Positions 1-61,007 of a stretch of 64,000 bases of DNA are shown one piece after another (positions within the stretch are counted from its first letter, which is position 1; each line of letters starts with the position of its first letter). Under the pieces are notes generated by a model, which saw only the letters and a list, made by a program, of their open reading frames with translations, searched no databases and was not told the DNA's origin. Source of the DNA: Lathyrus oleraceus (taxonomy: Eukaryota; Streptophyta; Magnoliopsida; Fabales; Fabaceae). The stretch spans positions 427,080,319-427,144,318 of the forward strand of contig NC_066584.1 in NCBI RefSeq assembly GCF_024323335.1, read 5' to 3'. Both the position numbers and the translations under genes were made by a program.

Positions 1-430
1 TAGTGAAGTTTATCTAAGCTTGATAGTATTTTAAAGGAAAAGAAGTCAACTTAAGTCTTGGGAAAGTTAGCATAAGACACTTGTGTTCAACTTGAATTAT
101 TATGAAAAGGGTCTGCACATGATTGACAGTTGTGTTTCTAATATTGTCATTATTCACATACAATTAATCAATTAATGCTTGCTTGGGATCTACAATACTT
201 GTTCAACTTCAATTATTTTGAAAATTAGGCAAGAGTAAACCATATCTAAGACACGTCTTCCTATTATACTCTATCATATTTTTCAGTGATAATCAGATAC
301 TCACTTTTTCGACATTTGCATCACTTGCTAATAATCACTTGCTAATCACATTAAAACATGTTAATTCAGTTGATCAAATAGTTAATTCGATTTATGATTA
401 AAATCATGATTAATTTAGTTATATGATTAT
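1..430. repeat. Gene-free repeat stretch related to 8620-8905
   Basis: No gene is supported here. The first 115 bases resemble the stretch 8620-8905: both carry a near-identical block (AGCTTGA.AGTATTTTAAAGG followed by AAAAGAAG) and, further on, the shared words TTGT..TCAA and GAATTATTATG.AAAG, with indels between them. This points to a dispersed or locally duplicated repeat flanking both the left edge of the window and the HPP gene region. Confidence 0.45.
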
Positions 431-1034
431 TACTGACATATAACAGAAAGATTGGAAGGTAAACTTCGATGTTTGCATACATCCATTAATAAAAGAAATA
501 TACAGTGCAGGTGTAACAGAGAAATTGAAAGGACTAACAAAATTCCTAATTGTCTGTCGACTGCGCGCATCGAAGAAGTCGTACGACGGAAATGTTTTAA
601 AGGATTTGCGCAAGTTCGGTGTCCGATATCAGAAGGACTCTTATTATATCTTTTTGTATAGGGAATCTGCCGACGAGTCCAACACACAATTCTGTTGTGA
701 ACTATGGGCTTTTCAAGCCATCCGAGTTTGTTTCAGTCCCCAAAATAGCATTTTAATAATTTTAACAATTTTAACAATTTTAGTTTTATTTTTCATAATT
801 TTAGCAATTTTCGTTTTATTTTTGTTTTTGAATATTTTTAGCATTAGGATTTCTTTTCAGTATTTAAACATTTTTGGGTGTGGTCGTCAAAGTGATCTTT
901 TATCATAATAAAAATAAATAGTTTCTTTATCTTTGGATTATATTGTTTTATCTGACATGTTTGTCGCTTGCAAATTGGTATTTTTGTTCTAGGTTTTGCG
1001 CTTGCATATCCTTTGTGATTCCGAATGTGTTAAG
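430..1034 (+). repeat. Probable LTR or leader of a decayed Ty3/gypsy element
   Basis: This AT-rich, T-tract-rich stretch ends just before a primer-binding-site-like sequence and a gag start, as expected for a 5' LTR. Short ORFs in it have no recognisable domains. A second LTR copy was not found in the window, so the left edge and the LTR identity are inferred from position only. Confidence 0.35.
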
Positions 1035-1050
1035 TGGCATCAGAGTAGGT
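1035..1050 (+). other. PBS-like sequence (initiator-Met tRNA type)
   Basis: TGGCATCAGAGTAGG resembles the common plant retrotransposon primer binding site TGGTATCAGAGC, with two differences. It lies about 35 bases before the gag ATG at 1083. Confidence 0.45.
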
Positions 1051-1082
1051 TTCTCATGTTTCTTTTTGTAGCTTGATCAACC

Positions 1083-1400
1083 ATGATAGATCAACCGATG
1101 ACTAGAGCAGACCTTGAGGGAATTACTGCGACTTTTGCCACGACCCTAGCTGCTTTGACTAAACGGATGTAGACTTTAACAAAACAGGTGAACAACGCCA
1201 ACAAAAAATAGACTGGAGAGGGGAACATATTAGGGTTCCGCAGGGAGGAAACAATCGTGTTGTTATTACTGAAAATTCTAGTTCTGAAGAAGAAGAATTC
1301 AACGAGGAAGAGATAGTTGATCATGGAAATCGACATAACCATGACTATTGAATGAAGACTGATATTCCATTATTCTACGGAATGATAGGAGTGGAGGAGT
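1083..1400 (+). pseudogene. Ty3/gypsy gag fragment, N-terminal part
   Basis: Starting at ATG 1083 the translation begins MIDQPMTRADLEGI and, after stops and frame changes, reads an acidic stretch (SSSEEEEFNEEE) followed by a DIPLFYG..GVEEFL motif. That motif is the start of the conserved plant Ty3/gypsy gag domain. The reading is cut at about 1400, where the LTR-like repeat of the next element begins. Stops and frameshifts make it non-functional. The lineage is uncertain; a chromovirus-type gag is my best reading. Confidence 0.55.
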
Positions 1401-1956
1401 TTCTGGCGAGTTGTTACTTCGCTTGGCGAGCAACCTTTATTGACCCTGAAGTATCTGTCAACTCAACATCTTAAATCACCTTGTCTCTCTTAGCGAGAAA
1501 GAGGCTCTCCTGACAAGCTTCCTCGTTGCAGCCTCGCCTGGCGAGAATGGAACATTTTGATTCTGAAAAGTCTCTGACTTGTCTTGCTTGGTGCTCACTG
1601 AAGTTTCACTGGGCGAGATGGGTCGCCTGAGGCTCGCCTGGCAAGAATGATGATTTTTTCTTCTGTTTCTCCATGTACGAGCCTCGTTATTGGTTTGTTG
1701 GACTAGCTTTCGCCTGGGCCTCGCTAGATGCTCGCCTGGCGAACATGCAGGATCTCTTCTTTCTTGATTTGTGTTCTAATCATGGTTAATTGTGGAAATT
1801 CATGCACAATACCAAAGAAATCACAAAGCATAAAGATTATATGTTTCAAACTTAATCATATTCAATATTTGGGGATATCAATGGTAGAAAACGGTAATTC
1901 AAGTCAATAAGTGGCAAGATTTAATGCGGTCAAATACCATCTTTTGGTACTTATCA
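1400..1956 (-). repeat. LTR copy (3' LTR on minus strand)
   Basis: Related to 6030-6552 along its length; shared words include CTCG.CTGGCGAG.., GTTAATTGTGGAAATTC and GCGGTCAAATACCATC. Read on the minus strand it begins TGATAAGTACCAAAAGATGG, the expected TG start. The short plus-strand ORF at 1728-1910 lies inside the LTR and has a counterpart in the other copy, so it is not treated as a gene. Confidence 0.6.
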
Positions 1957-1975
1957 AATTCTCCCCAACTTTTCA
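1957..1975 (-). other. Polypurine tract
   Basis: On the minus strand AAAAGTTGGGGAGAATT lies directly against the TGATAAG start of the LTR copy at 1956, which is where the plus-strand primer of an LTR retrotransposon sits. Confidence 0.55.
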
Positions 1976-3540
1976 AACACAAGAAGTTTTCACCAAGCTC
2001 CATGATCAACAATACTTTTCAAACAAATGAAGAAAACGTATGGTTCAAATGTAGAATGCACATGTGAATGTTATGTTTATTACTTTTCTAGAATCAAAAC
2101 ACGAATATGAATTAAGTTCTAAACAAAATTTTCATGTCATACATTATAAATCAATAGCATAATTCTACTTGAATCACCCTAACACACTTCTTCATAAAAT
2201 GGATGACGAACTTTGAATTCAATCATGCGGGAAGTGAACTCTTACCCAATAACATTGCTAACATCTTAATCAATTCATGTATTCATCTAAGTAATTCACT
2301 TTGAAATCACGAAAGAATAGATCACTAAGGACTTTTCCATGGTTGTAACTTGGTCGAGTTTCAAAAGGAAAGGTCATTTATAAGGTTATTGAAACAAGAA
2401 TGGTCAAAGTTAATGAAGATCATCTCAAAGTTGTATATTATCCACCCTTTCATTTTCTTATTTTCTTTCCATCCCTCAAGATATTTTGATGCAACAATGT
2501 GATCATTTATTTTCCTTTCTTTCATTTCCTTTCTCTCCTTTCCTTTCCTTTCTTTTTCTTTCTCTTTTCTTTTTTTTATTGCATTTTTCTTTTCCTTTGT
2601 TCAGTTTTCTTATTTTTCTTGTCCATGAAGCAACTTTCCCCCAACTTAATCAACTCCCACTTTCCTTTTAAAAAAATAAATACTTTTCATTATTGGCAAG
2701 TAACATTAATTAAGACTAATTTAAGGGTTTGCTTTCAAGGAAAAATTAGAATGGATCAATTATGAACTTTTTGATTTTTGGATAAAAGACAACAAGTTCA
2801 CCAAGTGGTTTACTTAGTGATTTGTTTGAGTTCAAAATTGATTCGTTCATGACTTTTTCGCTCAAAGGGATTTACAAATACTCAATCATTCACATGGTAG
2901 GAAATAACCATTTTTTGTTTGGTGGTTCTCTCAACATCAACAATTGCCTTTATCCTTTCTATGCTCTCATAACTTTCAAAATAAATGCAAGATTTAACAT
3001 GAATTGGATGAGTTAAAAAAAGAATCACCAGTCAACTTGAGCATATAAGTGAACAATTGACGGTTTCCTCACAATTTTTGGTTTAGACCTAAGTGATTCA
3101 AGCATGAAACATTTTTTTGCAAAATGATGCATGAAATGATTTTATATGAACACAAAGTTCAAGTTCACGCTAACATTCTAGAAAGCAATAAACATGTATC
3201 CTGCTTGTGTGCAACTCATCCAAAATTCTTATCATCACCACTACATTTTTGTTGATTTTCTTGAAACTTGATTGAGTCTTCTTTTCTTCTTCAAGGAAAT
3301 TAGACAAATCTTGAAAACAAACACAGAAAGCACAATTTAAACAAAATTATTAAACAAGCTTATTTAAACAACAAACTAATTATAAAGAACCAAAATCCAA
3401 AATTTATGGTAAAAACACCAACAAAATATCCCACATTAAAACAAACAGTGTGATCATTATAAGATAAAATGAATAAGAAAGCAATAAGATATATCATGTA
3501 AATGACTGAAAGCTTTTAAAAACATCACTCACTTATTGCA
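1976..3540. other. Non-coding interior of the Athila-like element
   Basis: No coding similarity was recognised on either strand. It includes a pyrimidine-rich low-complexity run at about 2500-2590 (purine-rich on the element's sense strand). Short ORFs at 2486-3016 are low-complexity or chance frames. Confidence 0.5.
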
Positions 3541-3559
3541 AGCTTTCTTTTCGGTCATC

Positions 3560-4284
3560 CACATTTTAATCAACCATTTTCTCATCTGATTCTTCACTTG
3601 ATCATGTCTTTGTTTCCTCATATCCTTCTTCTTCATTATCAGCAGTTGTTGCCTGCCCTTAGTTACCTTGCCTGTCCTCAAGCCAGTTAATATGTGCCTG
3701 GAACGCTCCTGGTTCCATCACTTGTTGCTTGCCTCCTCAGGTCTCCCCATCCGCAACTAAAGTCTATACATAGAATCCTGCCTAAAGATAAAAGCTCTAT
3801 GGTTGGACTCATTTTGGTCCCGAGTATGAGAAAAAGAAACTCTCATCCTTAGGTCCCAATCACTAAAACCATTATTAGTTGTATCTTGAGGGGTTATAGG
3901 TGTCAGCCAGGTTCCTCTAGTTCTCCTACGGGTACAATACCTAGAGATATATGCATCATTAATATGTCATGTGATAGTCTTGTGAACGTACCGTGGTAAA
4001 GCCATGCTTGTGCTCATTCACAATCCTATGATTAAACTAGGGTATACCAGAGGGCATGGAGGTTTTTCTCCTAGTTGACGACCATTTTCCACCACTATAT
4101 TGAGTTCATTAGCTATAATGCGAGCCACATCCACATGTCTTCCCTTTACAAGGTGAAATAGAAGCTTTGCAGTGTTCAAGGTGAAGGTAGAAGTATGGAT
4201 ATTAGGTATGATATTATGCAGGATTAGAAGGAGAAAAACTTCCGCAACTGGAGATAGGTCATCTCTCTGATATCTAATGGGCAC
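3560..4284 (-). pseudogene. Athila-associated ORF with putative plant transposon-type domain
   Basis: From 4284 down to 4018 the minus strand encodes an open 88-residue stretch starting MPIRYQRDDLSPVAEVFL. Its pattern (..LLLILHNIIPNIHTSTFT.. then ..GRHVDVARIIANEL..) matches the family of proteins of unknown function found in Athila and SIRE elements as an extra or envelope-like ORF. Below 4018 the frame is broken but a basic, lysine-rich tail can be followed to about 3560. Its role is not established. Assignment is by pattern only. Confidence 0.5.
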
Positions 4285-4539
4285 TCATTTTCTTTTCTTT
4301 TCATTTCTTCTGATTTTTCTATTTTTGTTCATCACTCATTTTTTCTCATTCCTTTCTCTTTCATTTTCAACTAATGCTTCTTTATTCTTTTGTTCTTCTT
4401 ACTGCTCCTAACTTTCTTTTATCTATCCCTCTTATTTTTCAACCACAACTCTTTCTTTTTCTAGATTTTTATCGACTCCAGTTTCAATCATTCTACCGCT
4501 CTCAGTTGTAATTGCTATACAATGCCCTCTTGGATTGGT

Positions 4540-5640
4540 TTGCATGTTGGCGGTGAAGGTTCCTCCTTGTTAATCAACTAATTGTTTTGCAATTTGCCCA
4601 ACTTGCATTTCAAGATTATTTATCGAAGCATCTATATTTTTCTGATTCGCAATTGATATTTGCATAAACTAATTCAAGGTGTCTTCCAATTTTTGAAGTT
4701 TTGTCCGGCTGTGGAAGATTTTTTATTGTAATTCTGATAAGGATTCATCATGTTCGATGGTCGTGTATCTTGTCTCCAACCTTGACCATAACTCGTGTTG
4801 TTTCCACATTAATAACCCTGATTACCTTGATATGGTGCCTGCTTCTGTTGTTGATTCCCTATATAACTCACTTCTCCACCAGCTGGAGGACAAATGCCAG
4901 TAGGATGGTCACCTGTTCAATGTTCGTAAAAAGTGATTTGTTCAAGTTTACTAGGTATCTGCTACATCTTCTTGAATTTTTGTGGAACTTTAGAAAGTTG
5001 CTTGTGGAGTTCTTCCACTGTTTGAGTAAGTAGCTTATTCTGAGCCAAAATCACATCATTCATTCCTAACTCGAGAATACCAACTTTTCGTTATGATGCA
5101 CCTATGCTATAGTGAACTTGATGGTCTTTCAGTTACATTCGATCAATGATGGCTATTGCATCCTTTACACTATTAGACATTAAGGAATCACATGTTGTTG
5201 CATCTAACAAAAGTTTGGGATGCGCCTGAAGTCTGTTGCAGAAAATTTGAAGTTGTGTAATATCATCGAAACCATGACTATGACACTTCCTCAACATAGA
5301 ATTGTAACGCTCTCATGCTTCACAAAGAGTTTCTATGGAACCTTAAGCAAACACGAAAATTGGGGTCTTTGCATCCATGAACTTGTTGTGCGGAAAGAAC
5401 CGATTAAGAAACTTTTCTTCAAAAATATTTCAGTTGGTCATGATTTATGTTGGTTGGTGTAGATACCGATCCTTAGCTTTATCAATCAAAGAATGAGGAA
5501 ATATTCTCATAAATACAGATTCATCTTCTTCTTTAGAAGCTCCAAGTGTACCGGTTAATTCACAGAATTTGGTGATATGAGTGTAAGGATCTTCATGATC
5601 AAGACCGGCGAAAGGATTCAAATAAATAATCTGAAGTAAT
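4540..5640 (-). pseudogene. Athila-type gag, degenerate
   Basis: On the minus strand, starting near 5640, the translation contains the motifs typical of Athila capsid: NPFAGLDHEDPYTHI, IFPHSLIDKAKDRYL, NRFFPHNKFMDAKT, EAWERYNSMLRKCHSHG and a basic glutamine-rich tail after SYIGNQQQKQAPYQ. Gag would form the virus-like particle core. In-frame stops occur at several places (for example after HQPT and after FVFA), so no full protein can be made. The plus-strand ORFs at 4701-5462 are shadows of this reading. Confidence 0.75.
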
Positions 5641-5689
5641 CATGTCTTCAATATGGTAGCATTAAGATTCAATACTATGGTGAATATTA

Positions 5690-6030
5690 AACCTAAACCT
5701 ATGTCTAGAGTTTAGCATCTAACATATGATTATCCTAGATCAAGATTCGAAGAGTATTTCTCAATAACGGTTCGAATCTATAAGTTAAACAAGGATAACA
5801 TCAATATCAATAAATAACTAATTCATATATAACACCATGATCATAATAAATACATACGACATCGATGGATTATACCCAATCTCAACAAGAGAGAGATTTA
5901 GCTAATCATAATAGTTTTTATTACAAATGAGAAGAAATAAAGATGGATGAGCATCAATGATGATTTCCCAATGATTGATGCGTATCCAACTCGTATTCTT
6001 CAAGTTCTACTCTTCTCTTTGTCTCTCTCT
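5690..6030. other. 5' leader of the Athila-like element; no gene seen
   Basis: This AT-rich stretch lies between the gag reading and the inner edge of the right LTR copy. A recognisable primer binding site was not found, so the exact inner LTR edge is unresolved. Confidence 0.4.
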
Positions 6031-6552
6031 GTCGAGTTGTTGCCTCGTCTGGTGAGCAACGTTTCTTCACCCTTAAGTATTCTAACTCAACATGTCAAAC
6101 CACCTTGTCTCGCATGGAGAGAAAAATGCTTGAATGTCGATCTTCCTCGCTGCAGTCTCGTCTAGCAAGAATGGAACATTTTAATTCTAGAAAGTCTCTA
6201 AGTTGTCACGCTTGGTGCTCACTGAACTTTCGATGGGCGAGATGGATCACTTTTTCTTCTATTTGTCCACGCCTAAGCCTCGGTGTTAGCTTGTTGGGCG
6301 AGCTTTCTCCTGGGCCTCGCTAGAAGTTCGTCTGGCGTACATGTGAGATCTTTTCTTTCTTGCTTTGTGTTCCAGTCTTGGTTAATTGTGGAAATTCCTA
6401 CACAATAACAAAGAAATCACAAAGCACAACACTTATATGTTTCAAACTTAAAACTAATCAATATTTAGGAATATCAATGGTAGAAAATGGTTATTCGAGT
6501 CAACAAGTGCCAAGATTTAATGCGGTCAAATACCATCTTTTGGCACTTATCA
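6030..6552 (-). repeat. LTR copy (5' LTR on minus strand)
   Basis: Second copy of the block at 1400-1956; on the minus strand it starts TGATAAGTGCCAAAAGATGG at 6552. Divergence between the copies is substantial (frequent substitutions and a deletion around 6250), suggesting an old insertion. Confidence 0.6.
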
Positions 6553-6566
6553 ATAATGCATGAATT

Positions 6567-7400
6567 TTAAAAGAATGTGACATTGCTATTTAGATCAGTG
6601 GTTAACTTCGAGATTAAGAATAAATTAAAGTAAAATTGAGGTATATAAAGAACATTTTGAAGATATATATTCTTGGTGAATAGATATTTCCAACATAATG
6701 TGCAATTATTTTGTGTCCATTTGGAAAAGTTATAGGCATATGTTTGTTTCGTGAATTGTATGAAAAAATCTAATAAAAGCACACACATGGTCCGATGCAC
6801 CGGAATCTAGTATATATAATGTATTTTTATGAAAAGGGTACTTGTTTTGGAGATGTTAGATGTGACCTGTGAGAAAAGGCTTGTGGTTGTCTTTCTTGTG
6901 ATCATCTTTGGAATCTTGATGGAGTTGGCCTCTTGTCTTGTACCCTAGGGGAAATTCATGCTTGAAATAATAGTTTTCAACTGTGTGAGCTTTTTTTTTT
7001 TTTTCTATAATGACTGCAGAGCATGAAGTTCCTTGATAGCCATATGCTTTTTCCCCTGCCTTGATTGTCGTTGGCGTTATCTTTGGAGAAGCTTGAATTC
7101 TGAGAAGAAATAATGGTATAAACAATAAGAGAAGCAGGAATTGCATGAGGCTGAGGATCTTGCTGAATAACCATTGAATTAGTGTTGTTGAGAGAAGGAA
7201 GAGAATGTTATTAAGACCTTTGAGGAAACATGTAATGTACTCCAAATATTTGAATTTTTGCACATATAGACTAAAGGAGCTAGAACATATTAGAGAACAT
7301 GTGCAAGAAGGGGTGGGACGAATGGATTCAAGTTTATCGTAGGATGAATTTATGACATGAAATCTCAAACTTTGAATGTCAAGTACTTGGACTAGAAAAA
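6567..7400 (-). pseudogene. Copia gag / protease / pre-integrase fragment
   Basis: On the minus strand, from high to low coordinates, there is a gag C-terminal part (..FLKGLNN.. and a spacer), a zinc-knuckle remnant (HTVENYYFKHEFPLGYKT), the protease active-site block ILDSGASDHV at about 6816-6785, and the conserved segment NVLYIPQFYFNLFLISKL before the pre-integrase domain. Several frameshifts separate these blocks. It is a truncated Ty1/Copia remnant with no LTRs recognised next to it. Confidence 0.7.
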
Positions 7401-7489
7401 ACAAAAGCAAAAAAGATAGTAATTGGTTAATGATTTGTACATGGGATTGGAAACAGAGCAAAAATAAGTGAGAAGTTTTCAACACACAA

Positions 7490-7495
7490 TTTATT
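7490..7495 (-). terminator. Possible poly(A) signal of the HPP gene
   Basis: AATAAA on the minus strand, about 75 bases past the stop codon of the HPP gene. Plant signals are loose, so this is suggestive only. Confidence 0.4.
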
Positions 7496-7570
7496 TTATA
7501 GGTAAAATGTTAGTGGTTACTTTCTTAAACAAACACAAATACAATAACTTTTTATCATAGTACAGAAAAC

Positions 7571-8180
7571 TTAGATGATGACACAGCTATTAGGATCCTC
7601 TTCAACGCTAACAACACCGTAATAAGGATTATATTGTGGTTTCATCTGATGATTATAATAAGCATGTGTTCCATAGAACATGAATGGATCAATAATATTT
7701 ATTTTTGTTGAATCTTTCTTATCATCTTCCTTCTTTTTAGGTTCTTCTTTCTTTTCCTCTTTAGCTGCTCCAACGGAGATGATTTCAGCATGACAAAACT
7801 TTCTTAGCTTGGCCACTACTTTTACTGCATCAACATCTCCAATAAAGGTTAGTTTCTTGTCTTTCATGTCCATTGAAACAGATTCAACCCCTGCAATAAT
7901 ATTACAAATAAAATCTCAGTATATATATCACTAAAACAATTCAATTCAATATAATTTCATTTCATTAAACAAACAAAAAGCATAATTCCAATAAATTAAA
8001 TACCTGAAATGCCAGAGACAGCTCTCATAGCTTTTTGCTTGATTTTGTCTTCATGTATCTCCAACTTTAACACTACTTTCTGTCACACAAAAATTAACTA
8101 GTTGTTAGGATTGAAAATTCATGGTTGAACTTTTGCATAAGAAATGCAAATAATCAGGTTTAGCTATTACTGACCTTCAT
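7571..8180 (-). CDS. Heavy-metal-associated (iso)prenylated plant protein, HIPP/HPP type, three exons
   Basis: Exons on the minus strand are 8175-8180, 8004-8079 and 7571-7890, giving 402 bases and 133 residues. Each intron has GT..AG ends and the frame holds across both junctions. The very short first exon (ATGAAG then GTCAG) is typical of this family. Residues 1 to about 68 form a ferredoxin-like HMA fold pattern (KKVVLKLEIHEDKIKQKA then GVESVSMDMKDKKLTFIGD). A Lys/Glu-rich linker follows (69-90), then a Tyr/Pro/Asn-rich tail and the C-terminal CVII, a CaaX box for isoprenylation and membrane attachment. The usual CxxC metal site is absent: the loop reads EIHEDKIK. It may therefore not bind metal in the canonical way. 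This is the only intact host gene in the window. It lies between a Copia gag remnant and a Copia/CACTA nest. Confidence 0.88.
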
Positions 8181-9098: not shown

Positions 9099-9119
9099 CA
9101 CTACGCCAAAAACTGGAAT

Positions 9120-9830
9120 AGACAGCGCACCTTAGAGGGCGCTTTCTTAAAGAAGCGCACTCTAAAGTGAAGAGAAAAATAAGGAGGAATAGACAGCGCA
9201 CTTTAGAGGACGCTTTTGAAACAAAGCGCCCTCTAAAGTGAAGCAAAAAAATAATGAGGAAATGGAGGGACACCAATAGAGGGCGCGTTTATGAAAGCGC
9301 CCTCTAAGGGTACCCTTAGAGGGCGCTTTTAAAAAAGCGCTCTCTAAGTCCATGTACAACAACGCACTTTAGAGAGCGCTTGTGTAACAAAACGCCCTCT
9401 AAAGTGAAGCGAAAAAATAATGAGGAAATGGAGGGACAACAATAGAGGGCGCGTTTATGAAAGCGCCCTCTAAGGATACCCTTAGAGGGCGCTTTTAAAA
9501 AAGCGCTCTCTAAATCCATGTACAACAGCGCACTTTAGAGAGCGCTTGTGTAACAAAGCGCCCTCTAAAGTGAAGCGAAAAAATAATGAGGAAATGGAGG
9601 GACAACAATAGAGGGCGCGTTTACGCAAGCGCCCTCTAAGGATACCCTTAGAGGGCGCTTCTAAGGAAGCGCTCTCTAAGTCCATGTACAACAACGCACT
9701 TTAGAGGGCGCTTTATTACAAAAGCGTTGTCTAAAGTGAAGCGAAAAAATAAGGAGCAATAGACAGCGCACCTTAGAGGGCGCTTTTTTTCCACAAGCGC
9801 CCTCTAAGGTCCCGTTTAGTAAACATTAAA
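9120..9830. repeat. Left subterminal repeat array of CACTA, with 166-bp tandem units
   Basis: The words TAGAGGGCGC and GCGCCCTCTA occur many times in alternating orientation. A higher-order unit beginning ATAATGAGGAAATGGAGG starts at 9251, 9417 and 9583, a period of exactly 166 bases. Such arrays are where the element's DNA-binding transposition protein docks in En/Spm elements. Minus-strand ORFs here are translations of the repeat and are not genes. Confidence 0.85.
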
Positions 9831-9958
9831 ATTATAACATACTGCGCGTTTTGTTATTTCACTCTCTGTTATTTTCGTTCTTTTTCACGTTAGGGTTCTA
9901 AGGCGTTCTCCTTCCACCTCTGTTAGATCTACGACGTTTCCTCCTTCTGGCACCAAAG

Positions 9959-10270
9959 GTACGTTTGTTTCGTTTTAGCTTTGCCCTATTTCTTGCTTTG
10001 TTTTAGCTTTGCCCCATTTCAGTTTTTTGTTATTGTTGTCTATGCGTTGTCTATGCTACGTTTGTTTCAACCTGTAAAGTTTCAATATTCATAGTCATTT
10101 TAAATTTGATAGCGCATGCGTTAAATTTCAAGCCCTACGTTTGTTTGGGTTTATTAGGCAATTTCAAGCCCTATGAATATCTAATTTTGTGTCAACACCA
10201 ATATCATTAGAAACCTAGGTCCGAATGTGTTTGAACTCTTCTGAAATTGTTTTTTGTTTATTCTAATTAG
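9959..10270 (+). other. Probable intron in the 5' leader of the transposase gene
   Basis: Donor AAAG|GTACGT at 9958/9959 and acceptor CTAATTAG ending at 10270 bracket a T-rich stretch just before ATG 10273. Leader introns are common in plant transposase genes. Inferred from splice-site pattern only. Confidence 0.45.
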
Positions 10271-10272
10271 TA

Positions 10273-13200
10273 ATGGATAATACATGGATGTCTTCCAATC
10301 GATTGTCGAGAGAGTACGAGAATGGGGTATTAGAATTCGTTAAGTTTGCCGTTGCGAACGCCGAAGACCCCAGTAGAATGATATGTCCTTGCTTGGGTTG
10401 TTGTTATGGGAAACGGGTTGACGCAGTTCAGTTGACATCGCATCTAATGAGGCATGGAATTGATCGAAGTTATACATGTTGGAATTTGCATGGTGAGAAA
10501 AGTAACGAAAATGTTGAACCGGGGGATAGTACGACCTATGCCTCAAACTATAGTGGCGCAGATACATACGATTGTGATCGAGTTGAAGAGATTGCAGAAG
10601 CACTTGAAGGAGATCTTAAGGATTGTCCCGAAATGTTTGAGAGGTTGGTAAGTGATGCAGAGAAACCTTTGTATGATGGTTGCACTAAATTCACAAGATT
10701 GTCTGCGGTATTAAAGTTGTACAACTTAAAGGCGGGCAATGGGTGGTCGGATAAAAGTTTCACAGAGTTATTAGCCCTTTTGAAAGATATGCTTCCTGAG
10801 GATAATGTTCTTCCCAATCGAACAAATGAGACCAAAAAGATGTTGTGCTCTATTGGCATGAGCTATGATAAGATACATGCATGTCCAAACGATTGCGTTT
10901 TGTTTCGAAATGAGTATGCATCGTTAAATGAGTGTCCTAAATGCGGTGTCTCGCGATATAAGAACAAGTTGTCTCCAGCAAAGATCTTGTGGTATTTTCC
11001 TGTTATTCCGAGATTTAGACGCATGTTTCGTAGTGAAACCGATTCAAGACATTTGACCTGGCATGCAGATGAAAGAATTATAGATGGAAAGTATCGACAT
11101 CCGGCAGATTCACCACAGTGGTTGAAAATTGATAATGATTATCCTGAATTTGGAGAAGAATCAAGAAACCTTCGCTTGGCATTATCTACTGATGGAATGA
11201 ACCCACACGGTATCCAGAGTATCTCACACAGTACATGGCCTGTGATTATTATGATTTATAACCTACCTCCATGGCTATGTATGAAGCGTAAGTACATGAT
11301 GTTGTCTATGTTGATTTCTGGACCTAAACAACCAGGGAATGACATAGACGTGTACTTGAAGCCCTTAATCGAAGATTTAAAGATTTTGTGGGAGACCGGT
11401 GTGGAGGTTTATGATGGATATAGGAAAGAAAGTTTCAACTTGAGGGCGATGTTGTTTGGCACAATTAATGATTTTCCTGCATACGGAAATCTATCAGGGT
11501 ATAGCATAAAAGGTCAATGTGCGTGTCCTATTTGTGAAGATAAAACAGATTGGAAGCGCTTGGAGTTTGGTCAGAAGAATGTCTTTCTCGGTCATCGGAG
11601 ATTCTTAAATTCAAATCATCACTACCGTGGATGGAGAAAGGGGTTCAATGGAGAGACAGAACAAGGCAGAGCTCCACCTATATTGACGGGTGATCAAATT
11701 TTTGAAAAGGTGAAAGATTTGGATACTCAGTTTGGCAAGCCTTTTGCCCACACACTTGTCAAAAGTGGGAGGAAGAAGAGGTCAGTTTTTTTTGAATTGC
11801 CGTATTGGAAGTCCTTGTATGTGAGACATTTTCTTGATGTTATGCATATTGAAAAAAATGTATTTGAAAGTGTTATTGGCACGTTACTCAATATACAAGG
11901 AAAGTCTAAGGATGGCCTTAAGGCAAGAAAGGACTTGATAGCGATGGGAATAAGAACTGAATTAGGACCCTTGAAGAAAGGAAAACGAACATATCTACCG
12001 CCTGCTGCTTATACTCTATCTAGAAAAAAGAAAAAAACATTGTGTAAGTTTCTAAGTGAAGTTAAAGTTCCAGAAGGGTACTCTTCAGATATTAGAAGAC
12101 TTGTGTCTATGAAAGACCTCAAGTTAAAGAGTTTAAAGACCCATGATTGCCATGTTATAATGGAACATTTTCTCCCAATAGGTATACGTTCTATTCTTCC
12201 AGAAAAAGTAAGAAGCTCTATAACTAAGTTGTGTTCTTTCTTCAAGTCAATTTGCAGTAAGGTGATCAATCCTGCGATCTTACCAATGTTGCAAAAAGAA
12301 ATCGTTATTACTTTGTGTGAGCTTGAAATGTTTTTTCCTCCATCATTTTTTGACATAATGGTACATCTAGTTGTTCATCTTGTGAAAGAGACACAATTGT
12401 GTGGACCAGCTTATATGAGATGGATGTACCCTGTTGAACGTTATATGAAAATATTAAAAGGGTACGTGAAGAACCGAAGTCGACCAGAAGGTTGTATGGT
12501 TGAAAGATACATTGTTGAAGAAGCGATTGAGTTTTGTACTGAATATTTGTCTAATGTTCAGTCAATCGGACTCCCCAAGTCTCAGCTTGTCGAAAAGAAA
12601 GAAGGAAAAAATCTAATTGGAAATAAAATCGTGGCAGTATCAAGGGTCGAACGGGATCAAGTGCATTTGTATGTTCTGCACAATGAGAATGAGGTTGAGC
12701 CGTATGTTGAAATTCACAAGGATGTTCTCCGAGGTTTAAATCCCAATAGAAATGAAAATTGGATAGTACGAGAGCACAATTGATGTTTTATACCTTGGTT
12801 TAAGGATCATATTTATTCAAAGTATTATTCAGATCCCGCTTCAATAACAGAAAGGTTGAGATGCTTAGCATATGGTCCAAGTTTCCATGTTTTTTCTTAT
12901 AGCGCATACGCGATTAATGGATACACATTTTATACCAAAGAACAAGATGATAAAAGTACTATGCAGAATAGTGGTGTCACCGTGGTAGCTGAAGCAATGC
13001 ACATATCAAGTGTGAAGGACTTAAACCCCAAATTTGCAAATCTGTCGTATTTTGGTGTTATCGAGCGCATTTGGGTGTTTGATTATGAGAAGTTTCAGAT
13101 TCCTATATTTGGTTGCAAGTGGGTTGAAAATAATAACGGCATTCGAATGGATAAGTCAGGATTTTTGCAAGTGGATCTTAATAGGGTGGGATACAAAGAT

Positions 13201-13500
13201 GAGTCTTTTATTCTAGCCTCTCAAGCTAGACAAGTGTTCTATGTCAATGATCCGAAAAGTACGAAATGGTCTATAGTTCTTTTTTCCAACAAAGTAATTG
13301 ATGAAAACACTGGAGATCAAGGTGATGATATTGATGTTGAGATTGAATCGTTTACCAGAAATGATCAAGATGAGAATAATATATCAAATGTTTCATATAT
13401 TAGAAATGATCATAATGAGGGTATTTGGATCAATCCAACCGTCCGTGTTGTTAAGAGACATGTAGAACATATTCCAACCAAGAAAAGAAAGAGAACTTAG
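10273..13500 (+). pseudogene. tnp2: CACTA transposase, TNP2 family, with one in-frame TGA
   Basis: Reading from ATG 10273 runs 836 residues to TGA at 12781-12783, then stays in the same frame to TAG at 13500, 1075 codons in all with a single interruption. Domains in order: transposase-associated domain (about residues 4-75; MICPCLGCC zinc-binding pattern), TNP2 domain (about 190-525; STDGMNPHG with a likely catalytic Asp near 306, ending DVMHIEKNVFES), and a DUF4218-like region (about 627-758). After the stop come the expected next motif FIPWFKD and a DUF4216-like region (about 13000-13290). The C-terminus is basic (KKRKRT). The TGA falls between DUF4218 and DUF4216 and fits a C-to-T change of CGA, common in methylated repeats. 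Either it is a pseudogene or it makes a truncated product. A later ATG at 12856 is unlikely to be a true start. Confidence 0.9.
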
Positions 13501-13623
13501 TGAAAAAGGTACAGGTCAAATGATTTTAATTGTTTTCTTTATTACAGGTAAAATGACTTTTATGATTTTAATTGTTTTTACATTTGTCATCTGATTTTAA
13601 TTGTTTTCTTTTTTACAGGTAAA
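13501..13623 (+). repeat. Intergenic spacer with a duplicated acceptor-like block
   Basis: TGATTTTAATTGTTTTC followed by TTTTACAGGTAAAATG occurs twice (about 13520-13556 and 13590-13626), so the start region of the second ORF has a tandem copy directly upstream. Confidence 0.6.
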
Positions 13624-14085
13624 ATGGCTATTATGAAGTCAATCATTTGTGCAAGGGGCAAGGGATGCTCAAAAGTATCAATTGATATTTGTTTAGATGA
13701 TGATGCTGGATATTTGAAAGTATCCCTCTACGACATTGGTTTCCTTGTTCGACAACATATTCCGATTACATGTGATAATTGGAGAAGTCCGGACTTGAAG
13801 GTTGGCAAAGAAAAAATATGGTCGGAGATACAGGCTTGTGTCTCAATAGAGGATGGGTATCTACTTAAAGTTACTTTTGTAGTGGTCCAAAAGAGACATC
13901 ACACCCGTCTCTTTCCTGTCAACCCCAAAGAGACCGATAGAAGTGGAAAAATTATGCCAGGTTTTTTCAATATATTTCTCAATGCAGCTGGTATATATTA
14001 TCATTTGAATTTATCACTTTTTGCTGATTTTGTTGTTCTAAATTGTCAAAGGAACCGTGGTAGACACCGGCATTTGTCACCCTAG
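13624..14085 (+). CDS. Second CACTA ORF (TNPA / Ptta-like), possibly partial
   Basis: The 153-residue ORF begins [20 protein letters not shown]. The ARGKG..VSI start and the ..[23 protein letters not shown] segment resemble the N-terminal part of plant Ptta/En/Spm second proteins, which bind subterminal repeats and assist excision. The usual long C-terminal part is lacking; the reading may continue in another exon, since GGAATTTGATTTTTACC follows closely in a different frame. The low-complexity spacer upstream could be an intron joining it to the transposase transcript. Identification is tentative. Confidence 0.5.
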
Positions 14086-14690
14086 GGAATTTGATTTTTA
14101 CCTTAACAGCCATGCAGGAATTCAGGTAATATTAGCTATGTCATTTAACTTTATGCCATTGTTTACTATTTGTTGCTCAATCGCCTTTTGACAGTTCTGT
14201 GTTATTTGCATTTGGACGTGTTCTTTTTGTAGGGGACTACTTATGCTGCCATCTGTTGTTTTGGTTGAGCCTTATTTTGTATGGATGTGCGATAGAACTA
14301 CTAGACAGCTTTTGGATATACAGAACATGTTTGCCACCATGGGTGGATGGGCGTTTTTGTTTAGTATTGGTTAGAACTACTAGACAGCTTTTGGATACAG
14401 TGGTCACTGGGTGTTGGTTGCTATGTTTTATTCTCTTAATTGTAGTACTTTGAGAATATGTTGTTGTATATTGTTGATCAAAGAATCATATATTAATGTT
14501 GTATATATGGAGGATTAATGTTGTATATAAATGGATTCATGTTGTATATATCAATGGATTAATGGTGTATAACATTGGATTAAAGGATGAAATCAATATG
14601 AATTTTACACTTTTGCAGCATGCGAACAGGTTACCAAATAAATATATATCCACTGTTTTTCAAACAAATTTTTGTAAAATAACTAACACA
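14086..14690 (+). other. 3' part of CACTA interior; no confident gene
   Basis: A short ORF at 14199-14453 has no recognised domain. AT-rich repeats of TTGTATAT..GGATTAATG occur at 14490-14575. It probably holds the 3' exons or UTR of the second gene. Confidence 0.4.
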
Positions 14691-15118
14691 TTAGAGAGCG
14701 CTTTGTCCAGAAAGCGCCCTCTAAACACTTTACAATGACAACTTTAGAGGGCGCTTTTTCCTGAAAGCACCCTCTAAACACTTTACATTGATAACTTTAG
14801 AGGGCGCTTTTTCCTGAAAGCGCCCTCTAAACACTTTACAATGACAACTTTAGAGGGCGCTTTTTCCTGAAAGCGCCCTCTAAACACTTTACACTGACAA
14901 CTTTAGAGGGCGCTTTTACCAGAAAGCGCCCTCTAAGGTGTCCCTCTATGGACCACTCCAGAGGGCGTTTTTTTCTTAAAGCGCACTATAATGTGGCCAC
15001 TTTAGACAGCGCTTTCTCCAGGAGAACAAAGCGTTGTATTTACCTATGCCAGCGCCAGATTAGAGAGCGCTTAAAAGCGCTGTTATAGGCCAAAATAAGC
15101 GCCCTCTTTTCCCTTATT
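14690..15118. repeat. Right subterminal repeat array of CACTA
   Basis: Repeated units of about 60 bases contain ACTTTAGAGGGCGCTTTTTC and its inverted partner AAAGCGCCCTCTAA, followed by AGACAGCGCTTTC at about 15005. The same vocabulary is seen in the left array. Confidence 0.85.
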
Positions 15119-15128
15119 TGGCGTAGTG

Positions 15129-53469: not shown

Positions 53470-54398
53470 GCAATCATACATTAAAATTCACGGTGAACCT
53501 TGTGTTGTTTAAGGGATCATCAAGATAGGTTTTCATTCTTTGACTATTAACTTTAAACTCATTCCATGTTTTCTCATTCAAAGGGTCTACAACCCCATGT
53601 GGATAATTTTTCAAAAGTTTGAAGGGGCCTGACCATCATGACTTTAATTTTCCAGAAAATAGTTTCAATCTTGAGTTAAACAAGAGAACTTGTTGGCCTT
53701 CCACCAATTTCCTTTTCTGGCATTTCCTATCATGTCATTTTTTGGTCTTTTCCAGGTATAGCTCAGCATTTTCATATGAGAATAATCTATGTTCTTCAAA
53801 CTCATTGAGTTGGAGCATTCTTGCTTGCCCAACAGCTGGCAAATTAAAGTTCAAAAATTATATAGCCTGTAATGCTTTGTGTTCCAACTCAATGGGTAAG
53901 GTGGCAAGCCTTTCCATAAAATAGCCAATAGGGAGACATTCCTAAAGGGTTTTTTAAGCAGTCATATAAGCCAACAAAGTGTCATCAAGATATTTGGACC
54001 AGTTCTTCCTTACAGGATTAACCACCTTCTCCAATATTCTTTTTATCTCCCTATAAAATTACTCAAATTTCCTATTACTTTGTATGTAATAGGTTGTAGA
54101 AACCTTGTTCTTGACCTCATACTTTACCATTACATTTTTAAATAATTTATTGCAAAAATGGGTTCCCTTCTCACTTATGATAGCTTTAGGTGTGCCATGT
54201 ATAGAAAAAATATTTTTAATTAAAATTTTGGTCACAACCTTAGCATCAGTATTGGAGGTTACTAGTGCCTCTATCCATTTGAATACATAGTCCACAATAA
54301 CAAGGATGTAAAGATTGCCAAAGGATAGTGGAAATGTCCCCATGAAATCTATGCCCCACACATCAAAAAGTTCAATTTCCAAAATGTTTGCGAGTGGC
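53470..54398 (-). pseudogene. Athila integrase, core and C-terminal part
   Basis: From 54398 downward: [20 protein letters not shown] with the first catalytic Asp, [18 protein letters not shown], then [15 protein letters not shown], where the usual second catalytic Asp is Glu. Stops follow, and the C-terminal part continues to about 53470 (PIELEHKALQAI, QQVLLFNSRLKLFSGKLKSW, YPHGVVDPLNEKTWNEFKVN). The N-terminal half lies at 60687-61007, beyond the CACTA insertion. Integrase would insert the element's DNA. Confidence 0.8.
54396..54398. other. CACTA target-site duplication GGC, left
   Basis: GGC precedes CACTACAACAAA and is repeated at 60684-60686. Confidence 0.85.
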
Positions 54399-54870
54399 CA
54401 CTACAACAAACAAGACCTTAGACAGCGCTTTTTTTAGCCTTAGACAGCGCTTTAAAGCGCTGTCTAAACCTCCGCTGCTAAAGGTTTAGACAGCGCTTTT
54501 TTAAATCTTAAAAGCGCTGTCTAAGCCCCCCCCCCCCCCCCCTTAGACAGCGCTTTGGCCAAAAGCGCTTTATAAGACCCTCTTATTTTAAATTTTTTAG
54601 ATATACCTTAGACAGCGCTTTTTTCAAAAGCGTTGTCTAAGCCCCACCCCCTTAGACAGCGCTTTGGCCAAAAGCGCTTTCTAAGACCCTCCTATTTTAA
54701 TTTTTTTAGGTATACCTTAGACAGCGCTTTTCAAAAAGCGCTGTCTTAGCCCCCCCCCCCCCCCCCCCCCCCCCCTTAGACAGCGCTTTTGCCTAAAGCG
54801 CTTTCTAATCCCCCCCTTAGACAGCGCTTTTTACAAAAGCGCTGTCTAAGGTATACGAAAATTTTATTTT
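54399..54870. repeat. Left subterminal array of the Pack-CACTA with long C tracts
   Basis: At least ten copies of TTAGACAGCGCTTT or its inverse. Two long cytosine runs lie between hairpin-like pairs: 17 C at 54526-54542 and 26 C at 54750-54775, plus shorter ones near 54810. Confidence 0.85.
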
Positions 54871-55128
54871 AGTTATTTTTACTATTTTATGTTACATTAT
54901 TTTGAAAATAAGCACACAAAAAAACTAATAAATATTATATTTGACGTCAATTTTTTAAGATAAATAATCGTTCATACATTTTAAAAATATTCAGAAACAT
55001 CGATAAGGATTATATTAAAAATTCTCCGTTAGATAATATTTAAAATGAACGAGAAGAGTATAAATATACATAGTAATCATGTACAAAAATTTGAAAGTGA
55101 AGAGAATCCATCAAAATTGGCGCCTAAT

Positions 55129-57103
55129 CTACCGTCTTTGGAAGTTGAAGAGTTTGATTGAGACAGCAAAAATACATGCAAAGAGCACTCCTGTCCCAAC
55201 AACAACAGCTGCACAAACACCTATGAAATCATGCTTGATACCAAAGTAACTTGTTATGAATTCTTGAACTGTTTCATTTTCTGATTCCATCATGATGTTT
55301 ATATCTCCAAATTGTGATGCTATCAATCCATATATAGTCCAAGCCACAGGACATGCCCAATAGTACCATCTCCACCACACCGGAATCATCTGTCATCGTC
55401 GTAAAAACTTAGAACATTGTATGTACATCAAATAAATACATTTAAGGTTGGTCATCCGTGTTACACTTACCGGTCGTGGAACGACGAATCCTGAAAAGAG
55501 ATTCCAAATCGCATAGAATGCAGAAGCCACGATTGACGCGACATGGTGATTTGGAGTTATTGCTACTGCCATCATTCCATAGAAGGTGAAGTAGCACAAT
55601 GTAAAGTACATGAAAAATATGTACCAAAAGAATTTCTCTAGAGTCCAATCAAATCCAATCATCGCATAAACTATCACACCATATGATATAGCTTGGATAA
55701 AAACATAAGGTAGTTCTATTATAACCTGTCACAAAAGAAAGTGAATTCTATGAAACATCATGGTGAAATAGGGTCACTAGTTCTTTTGTCTAGTTTGAAG
55801 CGTGACTAGCTTACACAGGGCTTCCAAAAACTTACGACGGCTCAGGTTGAGATTTTTTTTACCTGTGCGAATGCATAGGGCAAGGCAGAATACATTCCAG
55901 CAGCTCTTTCTCTATAGAAGACAGATCTTTCAACGGCTACCACGGGTTGTACAGCCGATGAATTCTGGACCCCAAGGAAGAGAACAGCAGTATACATCGA
56001 ACCGAACGCATTAAACAGATCTTGTCTATTTGAGCTGAAAATCAACAAAAGAGGTTAGAATTTGTTCAACTTGGAAAGAAAAACAGATTAATAATTGAAG
56101 TTTCACTTACTATTTCCTGCCAAGATCCCAGAATATTGTTCCAAACATCAAGCCTATGAAAGTAGTGAAGAAGAACCTCACAGCAGTATATGGCGGATTG
56201 CGCCAATACGACCAATGTTGTTTCCATAAGCAAGCCAAGCATTGGACCGAAAATGACTGTGAGTATTGGGTGGAGAAATGAAGATCCTTTGAACCATAAG
56301 CAGGTTTGCCTAATTCTTCTATAAGTTGCTTGTTTCTCCTAAACAACTCAGAGTTTTTGTATGTATCATTAAAATCAACACCTAAAGTAAGTTCTTGCGC
56401 CGAACTCGTAACTTCCAACATCCATGTTGCTGGATTATAGCCATCTTTGATTTTACTAACCCCTTCAATGCTCTCAAAATACTTGATCAGTTGACTCGAA
56501 TGACGACCCAACGGCCCAACGTATACTTCTTGTCCTCCGCGCTTCATCAGGAATAACTAAAAGAAATCATATATGTATGATAAGATATGTCATTTCAATT
56601 TTCAAGTCCAGAAGATGAAGAATCAGAAAACACTTGTTTTTTTTATCGAAATCATTTCTTACCTTGTCAAAAGCTTCGAATATGTCGATACTTGGTTGAT
56701 GAATGGTGCAAACAACTGTTCTTCCTGTGTCAACTGTGTTTCTAACGGTTCGCATAACAATTGCAGCAGCTCTAGCATCTAAACCAGATGTAGGCTCATC
56801 CATGAAAATTATGGAAGGGTTGGCAACTAACTCAACTGCTATAGTTAGCCTCTTACGTTGTTCGGTTGAAAGACCGTTCACGCCAGGCAAACCAACCAAA
56901 GAGTTTCTCAATGGATTGAGCTCCACTAGTTCCATTACTTCCTCAATGAACATCTACAACCATTTATCAGATATCTCGATTAATGAATCAAGTATAAAAG
57001 AAAATCGCAAAGTGTCCCAAGCTTTAAATACGAACCTTTCTTGTATTGTAATCAACTTCGGCTGGTAAGCGAAGCCATGCCGAGTAGAGCAATGACTCAT
57101 GTT
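55129..57103 (-). pseudogene. Captured 3' exons of a PDR-type ABCG transporter
   Basis: Six exons read on the minus strand: 57036-57103 (5' truncated, ESLLYSAWLRLPAEVDYNTRK), 56663-56953, 56110-56556, 55863-56034, 55471-55725 and 55129-55389 with its natural stop. All internal junctions keep GT..AG. They encode the end of the second nucleotide-binding domain (signature region [20 protein letters not shown]; Walker [14 protein letters not shown]; the H-loop in [15 protein letters not shown]) and the second membrane domain ([58 protein letters not shown]). Full-size PDR proteins are about 1400 residues; the first half and Walker A of the second domain are missing. No stop was found inside the exons, so the copy is young or spared. 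PDR transporters export metabolites at the plasma membrane. Confidence 0.88.
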
Positions 57104-57291
57104 AAGAAAAAAAAGAAACAGTTGGAAAATAGCCTACACGTTAAAAACAAGCTACAAATCCAATCCAGAAAACAGATATATGTATAACAGAGCAAAAATG
57201 GAAGACAGAGTGGGACTAACAAGCTTGCTAGAAAGTATTATATGCAAATACTTCTAATGATGCTGTGTAGAGGCAATGATATAGAACATAC

Positions 57292-58889
<1,598 letters not shown>

Positions 58890-59139
58890 TGAACTATGAA
58901 AATTAAGCAGTGGAGAAATTGCAGAAAGAGTTAAGAAATGAAGAACAATGCAGAGTTATTTCTCAACATTCTCCGAATGTTGTTAAAATAATACCTAGAT
59001 TTCAAATCATTATGAAAATAATACCTCAAGCTATATAAAATTTTCCGAATGTTGTTAATAAAAGACAACATTCATAGTTCATTACAGCTTAAACACCAAG
59101 TCAAGTACTAAACTAAAAACAAATAACAACACAAAATAC

Positions 59140-60179
59140 TCATAAAGAAGCAAGTTTACCCTTTACTTCACTCTCATCTTCCAAATCACCATCACCAACA
59201 AGATTACTTTCAATATCACTCTGCTTAGTCACCACCACCGCATCCCGTTGTTGCGAACCATTCCCAGTAACCGATTGCTGATAAAGAACTCCCCCAATTA
59301 TAGTAAAAAGCAAACAAACCAGACCAGCAGGCTAGCATGCTTATCCCAAATCGTCACATTAATAGCCACCATGAGAAACTTATTCACAACCCCAGTAACC
59401 GTAAAAGCAGTAGCCGAAACCGCTTTTCTCGCAGCAAATCCAAAGAAACTGATAAGCAAACCAAACACACAAGACAAAGAAACCGCAAGAAACGCATTCA
59501 TCTCAAACAAACTCCCGGTACTCGAATTAATCGCATTCGAAACCTCAAAATTCTCTCCAGTTAGAAACCAAAAGAAAGGAGCAATCATTAAAGACAAGAC
59601 ATTGTTATAAAGAACAAAACCCCAAGTATTCAACCCAAGACTCATAACCATATGCTTGATATAAACCATCTCAGTAGTAATCGTAACCAAATAAGCAAAA
59701 GCCCATGAATAAGCGGTAAGAGTAAAACCCGAATCGGTAGCAACATAACCAACGGCACCAGCAAGAATAACAACAAGCGAGAAAAAAGTAAGGTTAGAAG
59801 GCGAAGGTTGACCTCGAAAAGCGGTATCAGCGAGAGCAACAAGAAGAGGGGTAAGAGATCTGAAAACAATGAAGGTATCAACGTTAGCGTGACGGAGTAG
59901 ATTCGTGTTGGTGAAGATAGCGAGGAAGAAAACGAGTGCGGCAGGGAAGAATTTCTTGGCGATCGGAATGGTGAAAGGATCGTGATGAAGAAACCCTAAT
60001 TTTCCGAAAAGGTAAACGCCGAGAGCTGAAGTGAGGTACTGTAAAGCGGTTAAGAGACCAGGGTAGTTGAATTGAGTGATGGCGTATTTGTTGATTATCG
60101 CTAACAAGCTTGAACAGAGAGCGTAACCTATCACCAAACCGCTTGTGGCGTAGTGCGGTGGCTTGGTTGATGATGACAT
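59140..60179 (-). pseudogene. Captured GDP-sugar (GDP-fucose type) transporter, near full length, one frameshift
   Basis: Single-exon reading from ATG 60179 (MSSSTKPPHYATSGLVIGYA) with about ten hydrophobic segments typical of the Golgi nucleotide-sugar transporter / TPT family (INKYAITQFNYPGLLTALQY, FFPAALVFFLAIFTNTNLLR, GAVGYVATDSGFTLTAYSWA, FGLLISFFGFAARKAVSATA). It is open to a stop at 59298, but a one-base deletion near 59330 (after WDKHAS) explains the early stop: the expected C-terminal reading continues in the next frame with ..YQQSVTGNGSQQ.. to a TGA at 59140-59142, total about 346 codons, the usual family size. Closest recalled relatives are Arabidopsis GONST4/GFT1 and GONST3. About 200 bases of 5' leader are also captured. 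The truncated protein would lack the last membrane segment. Confidence 0.88.
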
Positions 60180-60384
60180 TGTTGCGGTTTTTTTTGAAGG
60201 ATTCAACAATGGTGTGAATTGGTTGGGATTTTTTTTTATGGTGTTTGAAAATGAAGTGGATCACCGACACTAGAGAGAAAAATGGGGTTTTTAGGGTTGA
60301 TTGGATTGGAGGAAATTGGTGTTTGTGTGTGTGTGTCAGTGAAGTGTAAATTGGGAGCAGAATGAGTAGAGGAAAAATGAAGAG

Positions 60385-60660
60385 GGAAAGAGGACAGCGC
60401 TTTTGGTTTTAATTTTTTTTTTAAATTTAAAGACTTTAGACAGCGCTTTATCAAAAGCGCTGACTAAGGTCTATATTTAAAAGCGCTTTCTAAAAGCGCT
60501 GTCTAAGGGGGGGGTCTTAGACAGCGCTTTCTAAAAGCGCTGTCTAAGACCCCCCCTTAGACAGCGCTTTCATTACTTTTTTGGAACATTTTCCGTGTTT
60601 TATTTTAATTTTAACCTTAGACAGCGCTTTCTTTTAAAAGCGCTGTCTAAGATGCGCTGT
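60385..60660. repeat. Right subterminal array of the Pack-CACTA
   Basis: Repeats of TTAGACAGCGCTTT and its inverse, with a G run (60507-60514) and a C run near 60551, mirror the left array. It begins right upstream of the captured transporter leader. Confidence 0.85.
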
Positions 60661-60683
60661 TAAAAGTCATTTTTGGCGTAGTG

Positions 60684-60686
60684 GGC
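60684..60686. other. CACTA target-site duplication GGC, right
   Basis: GGC after GGCGTAGTG, matching 54396-54398. Confidence 0.85.
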
Positions 60687-61007
60687 ATTCCTTGCCTCGT
60701 TAAAATATTTCCTACCCTTTGGCATATGTCACATTACTTAACTAATGCATTAGCATCTTTAAATATAGAGGGCCATAAGTAACCTGACTGTAACACTTTT
60801 AGAGCAGTTCTGATTCCTCCAAAGTTTCTTGCATAAGGTCCATCATGGAAAGCTGTCAAGATTTGACGTGCCTCTAGGTGGTCTACAAATATCCTCAACA
60901 ATTTATTAACATATCTCTTATACAAAAAGGGTTCATATCAGAAATAACTCGGAGACATATGAAAGAACCTCTTTCTTCATTGGGAGTGAAATTATGGTAA
61001 AACACTC
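60687..61007 (-). pseudogene. Athila integrase, N-terminal part
   Basis: On the minus strand from about 60940: EPFLYKRYVNKLLRIFVDHL, HDGPYARNFGGIRTALKVLQ, GYLWPSIFKDANALVK, a stop, then CDICQRVGN, the HHCC-type zinc-binding end, and TRQGMP, which meets the GGC target site. The integrase core continues at 54398. The upstream part of pol was cut off by an Ogre-type LTR at 61008. Confidence 0.78.

Follow-up and report, generated by a model that had tools for sequence, protein, structure and literature searches.

Pack-CACTA elements of pea with pieces of host genes in a common direction

Element A and its cargo

Here, we describe element A, a transposon located in a 64,000-nucleotide stretch of the pea genome (Lathyrus oleraceus, contig NC_066584.1, positions 427,080,319 to 427,144,318). 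This whole stretch, called the window in the following, lies on C6 of an assembly of 3.80 Gb. Element A is a non-autonomous CACTA (En/Spm) transposon of the Pack-CACTA kind, and its interior consists of pieces of three host genes, all on the minus strand. Along the direction of transcription, these are GDP-fucose transporter 1 (GFT1), HSP60 and a PDR-type ABC transporter. The capture of genes by CACTA elements is well known; the less ordinary part is the one-way polarity of the cargo, which we observe in element A and in the relatives examined. The features of the locus are collected in Table 1.

The left end of element A reads CACTACAACAAA at 54399 and the right end reads CACTACGCCAAA inwards (reverse complement) from 60683, such that the terminal inverted repeats are identical in 10 out of 12 bases. 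Subterminal repeat arrays follow in both directions. With at most two mismatches, the subterminal motif TTAGACAGCGCTTT occurs 53 times in the 64-kb window, as opposed to 0.35 occurrences expected from shuffled sequences, and all 53 matches are confined to element A (27) or to a related CACTA element, element B (26). When element A and one GGC are excised in silico, an open Ty3/gypsy integrase frame appears on the minus strand, and thus element A was inserted into a retrotransposon. The CACTA termini, subterminal arrays and GGC duplication had already been proposed in an initial annotation of the window; their coordinates are exact to the base, and the empty site is in good agreement with them. 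The absence of a transposase, likewise proposed, was confirmed by a Pfam scan of 54862-60440 in six frames, in which none of the matches up to E = 0.01 was a transposase domain. Ends and structure together assign element A to the Pack-CACTA class. A Helitron was considered as well and is ruled out by the 3-bp target duplications: Helitrons insert between A and T without a target duplication and carry a CTRR 3' end.

For each of the three pieces, a separate donor locus with exact breakpoints was found in the same genome. The donor of GFT1 lies at C4:94974025-94975418 (aligned identity 99.0%), that of HSP60 at C6:374127118-374128975 (98.9%) and that of PDR at C7:547032848-547035087 (98.2%), gaps not being counted in these values. 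The GFT1 donor is an intact single-exon gene of 346 residues, and the GFT1 of element A is 98-99% identical to pea GFT1. The donor stretches that were fetched for the three pieces (9.0, 3.1 and 3.4 kb) contain neither CACTA ends nor the core subterminal motif. The donors thus lie apart within this genome and their stretches are free of CACTA marks, which upholds the proposal that the pieces of three unrelated genes are transposon cargo and not a host region.

Introns are retained in the cargo, as had been noted before. Of 13 exon stretches compared with the donors, 12 have the same four flanking bases on each side, and the cut PDR exon is the one that deviates. The assignment of the pieces to GFT1, to HSP60 exons 1-7 and to the last six PDR exons stands. 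This does not hold for the GFT1 frame, which is broken by a private 1-bp deletion near 59331, such that the GFT1 copy of element A is not a full reading frame. Exon 1 of HSP60 has lost 24 bp, including the ATG. The PDR and HSP60 pieces overlap by a shared CATG; template switching leaves overlaps and fillers of such kind, according to the accessible part of the source (PMC8277862). HSP60 exon 7 and the cut PDR exon are joined in compatible phase; as chance alone would give this in one out of three cases, we draw no conclusion from it.

Table 1. Coordinates of element A, its insertion site and element B (positions in the window)
Feature	Position	Strand	Remarks
Pack-CACTA element A	54399..60683	- (direction of all cargo)	6285 bp; supported by its ends, the target duplication and the empty site
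Target-site duplication GGC, left copy	54396..54398
Target-site duplication GGC, right copy	60684..60686
Left terminal and subterminal repeat region	54399..54861		3' side of cargo; bounded by the PDR match from 54862
Right terminal and subterminal repeat region	60397..60683		5' side of cargo; corresponds to the transposase 5' side in L032
PDR-type ABC transporter piece	54862..57101	-	Last six exons (first cut), stop codon, 3' flank
HSP60/Cpn60 piece	57098..58966	-	From exon 1, which lacks the start codon, into intron 7
28-bp filler between HSP60 and GFT1 pieces	58967..58994		Likeness to nearby GFT1 3' flank
GFT1 piece	58995..60396	-	5' flank (about 215 bp), coding sequence in a single exon, 3' flank
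GFT1 coding sequence in element A	59140..60179	-	ATG at 60179; early stop 59298-59300
Host Ty3/gypsy integrase gene, left flank of insertion	54301..54398	-
Host Ty3/gypsy integrase gene, right flank of insertion	60687..60850	-
Element B (CACTA element)	9099..15128	+	CACTACGCCAAA ends, CCT target duplication, related subterminal repeats
TNP2-type transposase of element B	10273..13500	+	Transposase_21, DUF4218, DUF4216, Transpos_assoc
Argonaute (Piwi-domain) gene piece in element B	13624..14128	+	Downstream of the transposase, same direction

Related elements and the order of capture

Relatives were sampled by BLAST of element A against its own genome, where the best 40 candidates were scored and 36 loci (numbered with the prefix L) were fetched. 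Among the candidates scored, the three-gene cargo occurs at five places, and the search for further copies with the same cargo, as recommended in the initial annotation, thus succeeded at four places besides element A. Element A has moved together with its cargo. We group the relatives by their content. Type I (PDR, HSP60 and GFT1) comprises element A and L002, L003, L004 and L005, the last of which has lost 457 bp of HSP60. Target duplications were verified for A, L002 and L004. In L003, the outermost 16 bp of the left end are missing, and the stretch fetched for L005 stops short of the right end. Type II (L006, L007, L008 and L026) carries GFT1 and a longer HSP60 part, and no PDR. In L026, 618 out of the 720 bp in the place of PDR match the HSP60 donor with 99.2% identity, up to the end of the compared donor stretch. 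The 720 bp of type II, which might be taken for unknown cargo, are mostly further HSP60.

Ten loci form type III, whose common cargo consists of ACBP pieces and a GFT1 cut near the C terminus; L010 is about 640 bp shorter than the other nine. Type IV (L018-L020) combines beta-galactosidase and malic enzyme with a GFT1 that is cut earlier than in type III, and its 3' piece is presumably a zinc finger, judged by eye. Candidate donors of type IV were found at C7:27944738-27945875 for the malic-enzyme part (96%), at C6:464956568-464957307 for the presumed zinc-finger part (100% of 740 bp), and at four places for the beta-galactosidase part (98-100%). Type V (L022-L024) has PDR, Vps35 and a Tim17-family piece, no GFT1, and its members are more than 99.9% alike over 3557 bp. 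Other cargo was found in L033 (UBC, RWD and RRM), L034 (ATG7), L035 (ubinuclein-like) and L036 (ACBP, a GFT1 piece and CDC20), while L032, with ends 96-97% like those of element A, contains transposase pieces.

The flanking 3 bp are identical in all 25 rows with both ends exact, which represent 24 distinct places, as L006 and L027 coincide. Eleven loci have no such row, namely the three donors and L003, L005, L007, L008, L014, L021, L031 and L036, in which the ends are cut, changed or outside the stretch; L007 is the same place as L028, where both ends are exact. GFT1 was compared at 21 places other than element A. At 17 of them it matches from the first base and is free of indels (L021, one of these, has a stop); the exceptions are L013 with a 1-bp insertion, L025 and L026 with parts lost or split, and L005, which was compared in part.

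A GFT1 cut down to 347 bp (q4857-5203) occurs at seven places among the best 40 candidates scored, including C2:361314584. One of the seven was fetched, L036, and its CDC20 in 5' position indicates that an exchange of the 5' module may occur as well. A first look for the 253-bp right end of element A gave 1241 candidate places, and the 40 places that were scored are all at least 98% identical, such that the family is probably large and young. In L031, positions 1-8031 show the left end of a family member and, on the cargo strand, pieces that resemble peptidases by eye; a Ty3/gypsy element on the other strand comes next.

The pattern of contents is in agreement with a stepwise capture. In a GFT1 segment of 1 kb, the similarity among types I-IV is 99.5%, within types as well as between types, and 98.5% to the donor, and the tree of this segment is star-shaped. 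The equal similarity and the star tree suggest that GFT1 was captured once and that a burst of types followed, close in time. Since type I has PDR where type II continues HSP60, PDR was probably captured last, replacing a part of HSP60. Judged from the sequences, the sequential capture that had been considered for the three pieces is supported, as copies do exist with GFT1 and a longer HSP60 but without PDR. In view of the CATG overlap and the 28-bp filler, a new piece would enter at the junction of the left end with the older cargo by a repair-type copying, and each entry would trim the 3' end of the preceding piece. The growth series would then read GFT1, GFT1-HSP60, GFT1-HSP60-PDR.

Annotation of the pea genome is affected as well. 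Among the pea gene models, there are fusions of GFT1 with pieces of Cpn60, ACBP/ankyrin and beta-galactosidase. The models P0001, P0004, P0006, P0028, P0036, P0048 and P0055 are predicted fusions that resemble transposon cargo, with names such as GDP-fucose transporter 1, beta-galactosidase or hypothetical protein; P0001 is probably derived from L008. The annotated number of GFT1 copies in pea is inflated by transposon cargo, and caution is advised with pea models named GDP-fucose transporter 1, as these include such cargo fused to other genes.

Direction of the cargo and its possible causes

The interiors of ten elements, one per type plus singles (A, L010, L019, L022 and L031-L036), were scanned with Pfam in six frames, with stops written as X and a cut-off of E up to 0.01 (0.001 for L010). 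All matches are found on the cargo strand: Cpn60 and ABC in element A, ACBP and ankyrin in L010 (type III), malic enzyme, GHD and GH35 in L019 (type IV), PDR domains, Vps35 and Tim17 in L022 (type V), UQ_con, RRM and RWD in L033, ATG7/ThiF in L034, HUN in L035, and CDC20 and ACBP in L036. The matches in L032 are transposase-associated domains, again on the cargo strand only and starting towards the right end. The 30 opposite-strand frames of the ten elements gave 0 Pfam matches. L031 is without a match on either strand, and three of its peptides chosen by eye had no meaningful match. Thus, 14 out of 14 tool-named donor genes, GFT1 included, lie on one strand, and 10 out of 10 among those with strong scores, where HSP60 is counted on joined exons. 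Names given by eye (zinc finger, alcohol dehydrogenase, S9 peptidase, and a site-2 protease with a weak M50 score) are outside the 14. Since L032, with ends like those of element A, has its transposase pieces on the cargo strand, the cargo runs with the transposase. The shared orientation, previously noted for the three pieces of element A, is thus borne out and extends to all tool-named donors of the family. On the transposase strand of element B, which was the one scanned with Pfam, the captured Argonaute piece runs in the transposase direction as well; the TNP2 frame of this separate CACTA element has one in-frame TGA (12781-12783).

From a structural point of view, these results may reflect a strict polarity rule, to which we assign a probability of roughly 0.6: every captured piece would lie in the transposase direction, with gene 5' ends near the transposase-promoter end and gene 3' ends opposite. 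Such an element would be built like a transcription unit and would allow a directional exon shuffling with GFT1 as a reusable first exon. The direction part is tool-supported with 14 donors; the arrangement of 5' and 3' ends is clearly seen in GFT1 and PDR, while it was judged by eye in the other pieces. Several points weigh against the overall explanation of element A and its one-way cargo. Four of the 14 donors (Tim17, UQ_con, RWD and HUN) score below the curated Pfam cut-off, and the right end of the CDC20-bearing L036 was not reached. The elements were sampled by similarity to element A with one member scanned per type, and other families may differ. Moreover, transcription from the right end is putative, as is the selection against antisense cargo.

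Element A is very probably a defective Pack-CACTA transposon with an interior of copied host-gene pieces, which would be mobile via the TNP2-type transposase of a relative. This enzyme would act in trans on the ends of element A; transposase remains are present in L032, with the same ends, and a TNP2 frame is present in the related element B. The elements may be read from the right end, which is the transposase side, and the 5' flank of GFT1 is a possible promoter. Cargo in antisense would yield antisense RNA against host genes, and such elements would be silenced or selected out. As the cause of the one-way pattern, we slightly favour this selection or silencing of antisense cargo over a directional capture.

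According to the latter explanation, the pattern arises from the capture process itself, without selection on the RNA. This is a serious competitor with somewhat less than an even chance. Insertions may prefer one direction in transcribed genes, with neighbouring elements fusing into a hybrid that encloses gene DNA, or a repair process may copy transcribed templates with fixed polarity. In its favour, every distinct donor is in sense, without any exception that would mark a leaky filter, and local insertions of Pack-TYPE elements with conserved direction are reported in the part of PMC8903248 at hand. The copy-private coding changes are unconstrained, so the cargo proteins need not be useful. 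Against it, the hybrid model is silent on the direction relative to the gene in the accessible text of PMC13317346, and we saw no demonstrated bias of insertion direction for the family of element A, in which no measurement of it was made.

The coding changes bear on a further explanation, namely that GFT1 and the fusion proteins were selected for function for a time, which would make element A a coding element instead of a passive carrier. Long in-frame fusions among the pea gene models would fit, as would the fixed differences between cargo and reference donors, 30 out of 31 of which are synonymous (GFT1 12/12, PDR 15/15, HSP60 3/4); a synonymous share of 29% is expected without constraint, as computed for GFT1. 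Among the copy-private coding changes, however, 9 out of 61 are synonymous (GFT1 5/40, with the 40 being 52 distinct changes minus the 12 fixed ones; PDR 3/13; HSP60 1/8). The other 52 alter amino acids, stops included, and GFT1 is frameshifted in A and L013. Hence, no protein-level constraint after capture is visible in the private changes of GFT1, PDR and HSP60, and selection on the proteins appears improbable. Fixed changes that are nearly all synonymous next to private ones that mostly are not suggest that functional alleles were captured recently, a short time ahead of the burst, and slightly different alleles of this kind are the simpler account of the fixed changes. The noncoding differences to the reference donors (25/751 in PDR, 16/1126 in HSP60) suggest as well that the captured alleles were unlike those in this assembly. 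GFT1 is unusual in this regard, as its flanks (about 350 bp, counted without the positions past the junctions) show only one substitution and three indels relative to the donor. The 12 fixed coding differences of GFT1 (L015 3732-4772 versus the copies) are partly clustered; this pattern may stem from the capture of another allele or from gene conversion.

Chance, or a repeated count of related copies, might come to mind, as three pieces alone are co-oriented one time in four and many copies share cargo by descent; with each donor counted once, the agreement is still complete (14/14), and it remains so without the three donors of element A (11/11, and 7/7 with strong scores), for which a fair coin gives odds of 1 in 2^11 for 11 more in a set direction, such that we regard this as very improbable. 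An ordinary gene cluster or an assembly error without any transposon has practically no support left, since donors elsewhere and the empty site rule out the former; in addition, each of 24 distinct insertions has a target duplication of its own.

Comparison with known systems

The pea elements bear on how cut-and-paste transposons acquire gene pieces, and on whether genes or only debris are the result. Element A has donors with 98-99% identity, and a single genome contains intermediates of its stepwise capture. On the basis of the one-way pattern, a genome-wide count would distinguish selection on RNA from directional capture. In the open-access papers searched, we found neither a report on Pack-CACTA elements of pea nor a statement on a one-way polarity of CACTA cargo with the transposase.

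Helitrons are rolling-circle elements with other ends and another enzyme, and they leave no target duplication. In maize, they were described to gain pieces of unrelated genes step by step, with several of them in one element (PMC3288121, accessible part), and the stepwise multi-gene capture in the pea elements is similar in this respect. For wheat chromosome 3B, 140 capture events by CACTA elements were reported, some with exon shuffling and transcription (PMC4290129). There, captures are defined as genes between two elements of one family, and the accessible part of the report states no polarity rule.

A likeness in structure is also seen to Tgm-Express1 of soybean, a 5.7-kb CACTA element found inserted in F3H, which carries pieces of five genes with introns kept. 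Its pieces are spliced as cassette exons into host transcripts (PMC1947982, as far as its accessible text goes), which would imply one direction. Multi-gene cargo with retained introns is thus common to both, whereas the pea element has other gene pieces, a gene 5' end with its flank at one end, and relatives in multiple copies.

Several captured genes per Pack-CACTA element are already known from the Pack-TYPE elements of Arabidopsis, rice and maize (PMC8903248). The accessible part of this source does not treat the direction of the cargo, which in pea runs one way with the transposase strand. In addition, the pea family differs from these elements in joining a fixed GFT1 5' module to exchangeable downstream pieces.

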